42,201 nucleotides of DNA. It comes from Prevotella sp. (GTDB lineage Bacteria; Bacteroidota; Bacteroidia; Bacteroidales; Bacteroidaceae). The stretch spans positions 1 through 42,201 of the forward strand of contig JAFUVB010000099.1 in assembly GCA_017471245.1 (NCBI GenBank), given 5' to 3'. Below, piece after piece: positions 5,939 through 37,235 of the stretch; position 1 is the first letter of the stretch; each line of letters opens with the position of its first letter. The notes under the pieces are model-generated. The model searched no databases and was not told the origin of the DNA. It worked only from the letters and a program-made list of their open reading frames with translations. The position numbers and the translations under genes are program-made.

Positions 5939-7528
5939 ATGATTTACAAATACGATTTCCTGATTATCGGGGCAGGCGTGGCTGGTATGAGCTATGCCCT
6001 GAAAGTGGCAAGAGCCAAGAAAGGCAAGGTGTGCATGATATGCAAGACTTCGCTCGATGAAGCGAACACCAGTTTCGCACAGGGCGGTGTGGCTTCAGTG
6101 ACTAATCTGGCAGTGGATAACTTCGAAAAGCACATTGAAGACACGATGATTGCCGGTGACTATATCAGCGACCGCAAGGCCGTGGAACAAGTAGTGAGGA
6201 ATGCGCCTGAACAGATTCAGGAACTGGTGAAATGGGGGGTGAACTTCGACAAGAAAGATGACGGAACGTTTGACCTGCATCGCGAGGGCGGTCACTCAGA
6301 ATTCCGCATTCTCCACCATGCCGATGACACCGGCGCCGAGATCCAGCGCGGACTGATGGCTGCCGTGCGCAGCAACCCTGACATCGAGATCAAGGAGAAT
6401 CACTTCGCCGTGGAGATTATCACGCAGCATCATCTGGGTGCGCGCGTCACAAGGCGCACTCCCTATATCAACTGCTACGGTGCCTATGTGCTGAACCCTG
6501 AGACACAGAAGGTGGACACCTATCTGTCGAAGGTCACGCTCATGTGCACAGGAGGCGTGGGGGCTGTATATCAAACCACATCGAATCCAATTATCGCCAC
6601 GGGCGACGGCATCGCGATGGTATACAGGGCAAAGGGAACGGTGGCAGACATGGAGTTTGTGCAGTTCCACCCTACAGTACTGCACTCGCCGGAGGAGACC
6701 CATCCTGCCTATCTGATTACGGAGGCGATGCGCGGATACGGTGGCATCCTGCGCCTACCCAACGGAGAGAGTTTCATGGAGAAATATGACGAGCGCCTGT
6801 CGTTGGCACCACGCGACATCGTGGCACGCGCCATTGACAAGGAGATGAAGATTCACGGACTCGACCATGTCTGTTTAGACGTGACGCATAAGGATCCTGC
6901 TGAAACGCGGAAACACTTCCCCAACATCTACCAGAAATGCCTGTCGATGGGCATTGACATCACAACCGACTACATTCCAGTGAGACCTGCGGCTCATTAT
7001 ATGTGCGGCGGCATCAAGGTTGACCTGAACGGCTGCAGCAGCATAGAGCGCCTGTATGCCATCGGAGAATGTTCTTGCACTGGCCTGCACGGCGGAAACC
7101 GACTGGCATCCAACTCTCTGATAGAAGCAGTGGTATATGCCGATGCGGCTGCCAAGCATTCGTTGGAGCACGTCGACCTGTACGACTTTAACGACAAGGT
7201 GCCTGAATGGAACGATGAAGGAACGATGACCAACGAGGAGAAAGTGCTGATCACACAGTCGGTGAAGGAAGTGGGCGAAATCATGTCCAACTATGTGGGC
7301 ATCGTGCGTAGCGACTTGCGCCTGAAGCGTGCTTGGGACCGTCTCGACATGCTCTATGAAGAGACAGAAAACTTGTTCAAGCGCGTGAAGGCGAGCAAGG
7401 ACATCTGCGAACTGCGCAACATGATCAATGTGGGATACCTGATTACGCGATGGGCCATCGAGCGCAAGGAATGCCGCGGACTGCACTTCACCATCGACTA
7501 TCCTGTGCATGCCTATGACAAGAGGTGA
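5939..7528 (+). CDS. nadB: L-aspartate oxidase
   Basis: The predicted product has 529 aa, the usual length for NadB. It oxidises L-aspartate to iminoaspartate with FAD, the first step of de novo NAD synthesis, in the cytoplasm. Visible signatures are the N-terminal FAD-binding IIGAGVAGMSYA (about residues 9-20), the SFAQGGVA segment, HREGGHSEFRILHHADDTG, and the C-terminal RPAAHYMCGG with GECSCTGLHGGNRLASNSL. The last two are diagnostic of the fumarate reductase/aspartate oxidase flavoprotein family. The C-terminal helical domain is present. No nadA or nadC lies beside it, so it is a stand-alone unit here with its own promoter and terminator. Its stop codon falls inside the first unit of a GA-rich repeat tract. 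Confidence 0.95.
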   Translation: MIYKYDFLIIGAGVAGMSYALKVARAKKGKVCMICKTSLDEANTSFAQGGVASVTNLAVDNFEKHIEDTMIAGDYISDRKAVEQVVRNAPEQIQELVKWGVNFDKKDDGTFDLHREGGHSEFRILHHADDTGAEIQRGLMAAVRSNPDIEIKENHFAVEIITQHHLGARVTRRTPYINCYGAYVLNPETQKVDTYLSKVTLMCTGGVGAVYQTTSNPIIATGDGIAMVYRAKGTVADMEFVQFHPTVLHSPEETHPAYLITEAMRGYGGILRLPNGESFMEKYDERLSLAPRDIVARAIDKEMKIHGLDHVCLDVTHKDPAETRKHFPNIYQKCLSMGIDITTDYIPVRPAAHYMCGGIKVDLNGCSSIERLYAIGECSCTGLHGGNRLASNSLIEAVVYADAAAKHSLEHVDLYDFNDKVPEWNDEGTMTNEEKVLITQSVKEVGEIMSNYVGIVRSDLRLKRAWDRLDMLYEETENLFKRVKASKDICELRNMINVGYLITRWAIERKECRGLHFTIDYPVHAYDKR

Positions 7529-7591
7529 GAGGATTAGAGGTGAGAAGCGAGAGGTGAGAAGATTAGAAGTGAGAGGTGAGAAGTGAGAGAA
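7521..7591. repeat. GA-rich degenerate direct repeats
   Basis: Several copies of GAGGTGAGAA/GAAGTGAGAG, some linked by GATTAGA, fill the stretch from the nadB stop to about 7591. The strand bias is strongly purine. I see no ORF or dyad in it. Confidence 0.7.
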
Positions 7592-25454: not shown

Positions 25455-25522
25455 AATCTGTCCTTTTTGTATATATACACTTTTTTAAACGCAAATCACT
25501 GTTTTTTATTGTCTGAACCTAT

Positions 25523-25717
25523 GCTTTTCACGCTCGAAAGTGGCATATTCCAAAAGTAAATCAATTTGATTTGCGCAGTAAATCAATTTGAATTGAAAAG
25601 TAAATTAAATTAATTTGCAAAGTAAATCAAATTGATTTGCAAAACAAATTAATGTAATTTGCACGGTAAATTAATTTAATTTGCTGATGCAAAGTGCCTT
25701 TTCGGAGCATGAAAAGC
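25523..25717. repeat. Inverted-repeat-bounded segment containing array 2
   Basis: The 23 bases at 25523-25545, read on the minus strand, match 25695-25717 on the plus strand at 18 of 23 positions; both include TGCC and GAAAAGC. They bracket the 22-bp array, giving a segment of 195 bp with MITE-like layout but no coding capacity. I could not identify a target-site duplication. Confidence 0.6.
25555..25686. repeat. 22-bp palindromic repeat array 2
   Basis: Six consecutive units of exactly 22 bp start at 25555, 25577, 25599, 25621, 25643 and 25665. Cores are AAATCAATTTGATTT, AAATCAATTTGAATT, AAATTAAATTAATTT, AAATCAAATTGATTT, AAATTAATGTAATTT and AAATTAATTTAATTT. All but the second are clean dyads. 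C-to-T changes in the left arm are matched by G-to-A changes in the right arm. The array lies about 100 bp above ruvA and 255 bp above the ddh promoter, between divergent genes. The rest of the 25455-25960 spacer shows no gene I can support. Confidence 0.9.
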
Positions 25718-25940
25718 GGTACTTTCAGTACGGTAAAACGCCGTTTCCTAAAGGGGAAAGCACATCATCGCACCACCGTTTCGGCAGATCTGGCATACTG
25801 ACAATTTCTTCGACATCCATTGCAGATGCTAATCATCCAAGACTGTCCGAGCGCCGCATTTTTGAAAATACTAACCACTCGGCATAATCATTGGTTTTGA
25901 AAATTATTGGCTTTTTGTTCTTTATTTCGATGAAAATGTG

Positions 25941-37125: not shown

Positions 37126-37235
37126 TTCGCGATAGTTTTTATATCAAAAACTGCGAGTTTTTATTGCAAACACTTGCAGTTTTCAATTCAAAAAGTCGCT
37201 GTTTTTGAAAGAAACACTCGCAGTAATTCGCAGCC
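37126..37235. repeat. 22-bp palindromic repeat array 3
   Basis: Units of 22 bp start at 37126, 37148, 37170, 37192 and 37214. The clearest core is AAACTGCGAGTTT at 37148, as in array 1. The others are variants (ACACTTGCAGTTT, AAAGTCGCTGTTT, ACACTCGCAGTAA, and a left half-match at 37126). Spacers often end in CAA or GAA. It lies in the 526-bp divergent spacer between the ATPase operon and the helicase gene. The rest of that spacer (36893-37125, 37236-37337) shows no gene. Confidence 0.8.

Follow-up and report, generated by a model that had tools for sequence, protein, structure and literature searches.

The six-dyad array in the window (the whole 42,201-nucleotide stretch of Prevotella sp. DNA that was analysed) is one copy of a scattered, clade-private intergenic DNA element. 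Four other Prevotellaceae carry private, sequence-unrelated families of the same core build. The kept features are the 22-bp spacing, the usual build of four dyads, and the letters of the half-sites. Because unrelated sequences share one plan, what matters would seem to be the dyad spacing and dyad number, not the letters. No description of this element class in Prevotella was found in the literature available, which was mainly non-subscription.

The window array and the AAATY family

The core array (25558..25682, plus strand) was defined from the sequence, TRF, and shuffles. It contains six 15-bp dyads (AAATYAAWTTRATTT), which start at 25558, 25580, 25602, 25624, 25646, and 25668 and have 7, 6, 7, 7, 6, and 7 complementary pairs, respectively, with a maximum of seven. 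The 7-bp linkers between them are, in order, GCGCAGT, GAAAAGT, GCAAAGT, GCAAAAC, and GCACGGT. The first-pass annotation described six exact 22-bp units without slippage, each a 15-bp dyad with a 7-bp linker. TRF confirmed this (25553-25684, period 22, 6.0 copies, 0 percent indels), and both dyads and linkers are evident in the sequence itself. The TRF fits at periods 44 and 66 score higher than that at period 22 (162 and 173 vs 145), probably because the linkers alternate. A left boundary linker conserved in the family, CAAAAGT (25551..25557, plus strand), is seen in the sequence; the right boundary motif GCTGATGC (25683..25690, plus strand) is seen in the sequence and in the family profile. 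The profile of 77 arrays would place further outer units in the family register at 25492..25550 and 25691..25756, neither assigned to a strand. Both sets are degenerate here; GCTTTTCACGCTCGAAAGTGGCATA is still readable on the left, and the right flank is by eye inverted relative to the left one (AAAGTGCCTTTTCGGAGCATGAAAAGC).

The array lies beyond chance expectation, as the lag-22 and chain counts are far above those of dinucleotide shuffles. The lag-22 matches in the spacer were 37/44, and the shuffles gave at most 28 (17 periods, 300 dinucleotide shuffles). Chains of at least four dyads numbered 64 in the spacers of 40 own sources (the window and 39 stretches of the same genome, all picked because they bear arrays), against none in 100 shuffles; the count is greedy, and one array may be counted in more than one phase. 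Shuffled spacers thus do not yield such arrays at an equal rate; an equal rate would, by the first-pass annotation, have counted against its own reading. The spacer was correctly placed between ruvA and ddh: it is bordered by ruvA (TIGR00084, minus strand) on one side and by diaminopimelate dehydrogenase (TIGR01921, plus strand) on the other, and is divergent. Immediately 5' of ruvA, at 25468-25479, there is a TGTATATATACA palindrome with ATACAATAAAA and GCGTTT motifs. These upstream motifs are kept in most of 11 relatives (L009-L022), independent of the array, and the palindrome may be a ruvA operator or promoter. Elsewhere in the window, a tandem repeat of 7 or 29 bp (AGAGGTG) is located at 7521-7589.

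A BLAST search with the window array gave 95 matches in the own genome, which correspond to about 45 places by hand count; both strands are included because the units are near-palindromic, and 40 of 60 candidates were scored. A self-complementary dimer pattern (at most 3 mismatches) was found at 152 sites in the own genome and at 210 in the sister MAG UBA4268, whose RuvA is 96 percent identical. Eight other genomes had 0-1 sites each, and the reversed pattern, used as a control, had none. These dispersed copies support one of the two roles first offered, that of a repeat family with an unknown means of spread. Among 398 sampled genomes of the genus, 11 (own included) had matches to the own-type family at no more than 2 mismatches: 133 sites in the own genome, 28-29 in two, and 1-5 in eight, some of which show a different dyad centre. 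The AAATY family is therefore patchy and private to a clade.

The 47 own arrays with a known context were found in convergent (15), tandem (15), and divergent (10) spacers, at contig edges (5), and in short predicted ORFs (2). The 61 control spacers were 18 convergent, 32 tandem, and 11 divergent, and no strong bias was seen between them and the 40 placed own arrays. None of the 31 sister arrays lay inside an ORF by simple ORF calling. A terminator or promoter role based on context was dropped, since the spacer types have no strong bias. Array orientation in tandem spacers (12 to 3 in the own genome, 7 to 6 in the sister) was also dropped.

In total, 48 own arrays (from 40 sources; one two-dyad chain among them is probably chance) and 33 distinct sister arrays (from 31 loci) were extracted. 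Exactly four dyads are present in 38/48 own and 24/33 sister arrays, with a range of 2-9. The window array is thus a six-dyad member of a family in which four is the usual number; the sister array at ruvA has nine units, several of them identical. In four-unit copies the middle linker is GAAAAGT in 22/38 own and 16/24 sister cases, the first linker is most often GCTGAGT (16/38 and 9/24), and the third is GCRCGGT (12/38 and 18/24). The left boundary linker of own four-unit copies is GAAAAGT in 24/38 and CAAAAGT in 5/38, and the right boundary consensus GCTGAAGC is present in 11/38. Single inverted linkers (ACCGCGC for GCGCGGT) also occur between dyads, for example in L113, L117, L118, and L122. 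They look as if neighbouring palindromes had recombined and flipped the linker.

The flanks of the 77 arrays contain about three more units per side with a GC-richer dyad (about AAARCGSCGYTTT). The centres of these dyads fall on the same point of the 22-bp grid as those of the core dyads, and lag 22 is also the leading period when only the flanks are analysed (z 4.5 and 4.9), so that one register spans two dyad sequences. The ends of the AAATY family fade gradually, not abruptly. Tandem arrays of 22 bp with other sequences were also noticed in the own genome (L105 8454-8579, L098 5766-5887, L096 672-748, and L094 6221-6301), and some of them adjoin AAATY arrays.

Thirty sister loci were compared with own stretches, and the AAATY family differs in occupied spacers between the two sister species. 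In four cases (window, L107, L110, and L125), the shared spacer carries an array in both genomes. The own L111 has about 69 bp, vs about 534 bp with an array in the sister L144. In L147/L113 and L134/L103, the own side has no array, and only one flank aligns. The window itself has a second, sequence-unrelated 22-bp array (about AGTTTTTATTTCAAAAACTTGC) at 37134..37206, with 3.3 copies, 75 percent matches, and no strand assigned; the orthologous sister spacer (L137) has a four-dyad AAATY array instead. Near-identical copies at unrelated sites (L103, L104, and L109) share the core together with 56-74 bp on the left and 33-70 bp on the right. No clean target-site duplication was seen when the loci were compared by eye, and no transposase or parent element was found for the family.

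Fixed spacing and weak arm pairing

The intervals between dyads are almost invariant. With a chain method that permitted only 21-23 bp, the interval was exactly 22 bp in 156/157 own and 104/105 sister cases; one sister array is listed both as L009 and as L135, and counting it twice gives 111/113. When no spacing was assumed and neighbours within 40 bp were taken, they were 22 bp apart in 154/155 own and 104/106 sister cases. Pooled over six genomes, 422/424 intervals have this spacing, which agrees with the geometry first proposed, in which a 22-bp spacing puts the dyads on one face of the helix. The 38 own four-unit cores contain 442 substitutions relative to their consensus. The near absence of indels in such drifting sequence argues that the spacing may be needed for the element to persist.

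The arms behave differently from what was first proposed. The first-pass annotation noted that a change in one arm is matched in the other, and this stands for the pair Y5/R11 in the window, which is matched in all six units as read from the sequence. It does not stand as a rule. Among 248 dyads of 62 four-unit elements, Y5/R11 was complementary in 151 (odds ratio 2.4, p 0.001), and about half would be expected from the marginals by a hand estimate. T-G and C-A mismatches at this pair were equal (47 and 50). Position 3/13 was unpaired in 30/248 dyads, with no double changes. In four orthologous array pairs, 17/18 changed positions were paired in one species only. The two firmly aligned pairs (window/L135 and L107/L131) gave 12/12 one-armed changes; in L110/L143 (offset 1) and L125/L150 (flipped, offset -2) the units may be misaligned, and the only double change comes from L110/L143. 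Changes between relatives thus break pairing far more often than they keep it, and the claim that symmetry rather than sequence is kept, which had been made to depend on this comparison, is not supported base by base.

Local covariation was raised at three of the four own dyad centres (ranks 4, 11, and 16 of 346; D2 ranked 264), and was not clearly raised in the sister. With this weak covariation and the one-armed orthologous changes, the dyad appears to stem from the consensus of its half-sites and not from compensated pairing. Together with the equal T-G and C-A mismatches, the one-armed changes fit a dimer that recognises duplex DNA better than they fit hairpin recognition, although single strands can fold. 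Pairing of the whole element as one long hairpin was rejected. Covariation at the whole-element centre was strongly negative in the own set (-3.2). The negative value persisted after 6/38 own copies were re-oriented, and was read as copies with flanks in mixed orientation rather than as support for pairing. A link between Y5 of D1 and R11 of D4 (odds ratio 117 own, 2.5 sister) was ascribed to subfamilies.

The same core build in other Prevotellaceae

A survey covered 250 intergenic spacers in 77 loci around ruvA from other Prevotellaceae and close kin; L009-L011 were excluded from this relatives set for dyad distances, lag periods, and palindromy. The commonest strong lag period was 22, found in 10 spacers of 9 loci, and each other period from 15 to 31 was found in at most three. 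The units of these 22-bp-lag spacers are mutually unrelated in sequence. Among arrays chosen blind to symmetry, those with a 22-bp period were palindromic in 8/12 cases and those with other periods in 1/13, the latter including overlapping pairs (L024 and L079). A previous symmetry test in the relatives, based on consensus sequences, gave 8/27 vs 1/17. The only palindromic array with another period is a strongly palindromic 21-bp one in L190 at 16582 (AATACTCCAAGAGTATT). L033 has a 22-bp array without significant palindromy. Dyad-dyad distances in the relatives' loci were raised at 11, 22, 33, 44, 55, and 66 bp, and also at 21 and 42 bp; few loci carry this signal, six of them with chains of three or more dyads at 22 bp.

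No 22-bp dyad peak was seen in unselected DNA, whether in 20 stretches from the genus, in 20 from the order (16 genomes), or in 200 kb of E. coli, and the trait is therefore patchy. The two Bacteroidales sets, same-genus and same-order, had one 22-bp array each. A claim for the whole genus, or for bacteria at large, was dropped on these grounds.

The units found at ruvA are repeated within their own genomes. The L022 unit was found at 40 or more sites in G047 (40 of 55 candidates scored), the L038 unit of P. brunnea at 40 or more in G048 (40 of 218 scored), the L086 unit of Hoylesella loescheii at 40 or more in G049 (40 of 166 scored), and the L037 unit at about nine sites in G046. Matches across genomes were none or few and weak: the L037 unit had one in G048; for the L038 unit, the own genome had three and G050 had one. 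Four dyads are modal in all four, with 5/9 arrays in G046 (repeats of the same sites, L239, L240, and L242, omitted), 19/20 called in G047, 11/16 in G048, and 9/15 in G049; L220 yielded no array in this count. Three dyads are present in 6/15 arrays of G049, and two dyads were called in 5/16 arrays of G048. The spacing in these four genomes is 22 bp in 162/162 intervals.

The outer parts are less uniform. The core ends fairly sharply in G046 and in G047, but not in G048, in which conservation reaches about 44 bp upstream (1.5-1.8 bits) and more than 80 bp downstream (1.3-1.6 bits) of the four units. Lag 22 was found in the flanks of G047 (z 2.6 and 4.0) and not in those of G048 (z 0.6), so in-register flanks were shown for two families only. 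By eye, the flanks look mutually inverted in the AAATY and G047 families, and their ends fade. A G047 site found by its flank motif (L263) has a two-dyad copy, and no transposase was recognised there by eye; nothing like a parent transposon was recognised at this single extra flank site. On either side of its four units, the P. brunnea element (G048, L243-L262) has a leader and a tail that are conserved as far as about -160 and +210; its third unit is a degenerate yet conserved dyad.

Candidate explanations and related systems

The explanation proposed here, with about an even chance of being correct, is a non-autonomous copied element of the BrickBuilt or REPIN kind, in which the dyads are putative protein sites on the same DNA face. 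The element would consist of a core of four dyads (six in the window) with centres 22 bp apart, flanked in register by dyad units of another sequence. Transposition or some other copying process would duplicate the element as a whole, with its length of about 200 bp. The dyads may be sites for a dimeric protein of the helix-turn-helix type, either a transposase or a regulator exploited by the element. Dimers would bind cooperatively, perhaps as pairs, with two helical turns between them and all on the same face of the DNA. Such an arrangement would keep the spacing, the dyad number, and the half-site letters while linkers and centres drift, and would leave arm pairing uncompensated. Binding by a dimeric or nucleoid protein, as also suggested in the first reading, is a plausible candidate role; no binder was found.

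A broader claim, which we hold at somewhat less than even, is that some Prevotellaceae carry an element class defined by geometry and not by sequence: modally four odd-centred dyads at exactly 22 bp. Their letters would be private to a species or small clade, as if a rapidly diversifying, DNA-binding mobiliser and its sites co-evolve, and only the geometry imposed by the protein, with dimers on one face, stays constant. If this is right, the conserved unit is a spacing rule common to unrelated sequences and invisible to sequence search. It would also indicate that a dominant group of gut and oral bacteria has a so far undescribed family of proteins which build or bind these elements, and each genome would offer dozens of natural replicate sites for finding the protein.

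Other explanations were weighed. The arrays might be a host binding platform and not a selfish element: operator or nucleoid-protein sites in use by the host, which recombination has spread and selection maintains. The exact spacing and the near absence of indels, intergenic positions in convergent, tandem, and divergent spacers alike, and half-sites about 8-11 bp apart by eye would all suit such a platform. It is nevertheless unlikely, as species carry unrelated sequences (the own-type family is in 11/398 sampled genomes), occupied spacers differ between sister species, and the preference for a spacer type is not strong. Quasipalindrome template switching is a mechanism that homogenises repeats, and a neutral minisatellite might arise if slippage multiplied palindromic 22-mers and template switching homogenised them, with no binder or mobiliser. 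Tandem homogenisation is visible in the nine-unit sister array at ruvA, with its several identical units, and dyad numbers from 2 to 9 do occur. Slippage, however, would not explain the modal four, the position-dependent linkers, or the in-register outer units. The link of 22 bp with palindromy in unrelated sequences and the dispersal to dozens of sites are also left unexplained, and arm changes between orthologues stay uncorrected. This makes a neutral origin improbable. An RNA-level element, such as a terminator, processing signal, or small RNA with four hairpins, is less probable still. The DNA strand has stable predicted folds; but no Rfam family matched at the gathering score in 10 loci, on which known RNA families were rejected, the changes have no strand bias of the G-U type, and divergent spacers also hold arrays (10/40 placed own arrays vs 11/61 controls).

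The main rival was a REP/BIME-type palindrome moved by a Y1 HUH (RAYT) transposase that recognises single-strand hairpins, because a Y1 subclass of Bacteroidetes (2.6) is reported, in the available part of its description, to lie between atypical structures of which the genome holds further copies (PMC6006769). REP, BIME, and REPIN sequences with RAYT are described in the parts of the sources available as high-copy, species-specific extragenic palindromes, some of them clustered (PMC3733652, PMC6006769). The Prevotella arrays are likewise palindromic, high-copy, species-specific, and intergenic. Six elements of five families gave DNA folding z values of -3.5 to -7.1, and the predicted folds are separate hairpins or one long hairpin. 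In contrast to REP and REPIN, the Prevotella arrays keep a regular 22-bp register over several units, and their dyads do not maintain symmetry by the paired changes of REP/RAYT hairpins: there is no wobble bias and almost no compensation. Y1_Tnp was undetected (E up to 0.001) in 5/9 carriers (G040, G048, G049, G046, and G065), of which two are isolates; some carriers are incomplete assemblies. It was detected in the other 4/9, the own genome included. The own Y1 protein is above the Pfam cut-off and just below the NCBIfam cut-off for IS200, and its 3.3-kb locus has neither an AAATY dyad nor a 22-bp array. RAYT/Y1 as a general mobiliser was rejected on its non-detection in the five carriers, and hairpin mobility of this kind is considered a poor prospect, about on a level with the minisatellite.

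Porphyromonas gingivalis and Prevotella belong to the same order. The BrickBuilt MITE of P. gingivalis is the closest element described in the sources available. As far as the available text of its description goes, BrickBuilt is intergenic and dispersed, consists of spacerless tandem 23-nt units with leader and tail flanks that have inverted ends, and is restricted to P. gingivalis and P. gulae (PMC4596501). The same text reports 22-nt repeats in strain W83, dyad symmetry taken as possible short stem loops, 1 to 22.8 copies with up to 6 percent indels, 19 copies in ATCC 33277, and 12-nt TIRs that resemble IS5-family elements (PMC4596501). A fixed dyad spacing and a modal number of four are not described in the parts available (PMC4596501). 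The Prevotella arrays are also intergenic, dispersed, and made of spacerless tandem units. Unlike BrickBuilt, with its 23-nt units, variable copies, and indels, they keep 22 bp in 156/157 own intervals and four dyads in 38/48 own arrays. No IS5-like TIRs (GAGACC..) were seen by eye in the flank consensus.

In the lambda operators OR and OL, pairs of dimers bind odd-centred dyads that measure about 17 bp and are separated by about two turns. Lambda has three such sites per operator at one or two loci, whereas the Prevotella arrays are present in dozens of dispersed copies. The ends of Mu and Tn7 have 22-bp transposase sites, four of which are adjacent in one Tn7 end. These sites are not dyads, unlike the Prevotella units, and the 22-bp length is common to both.
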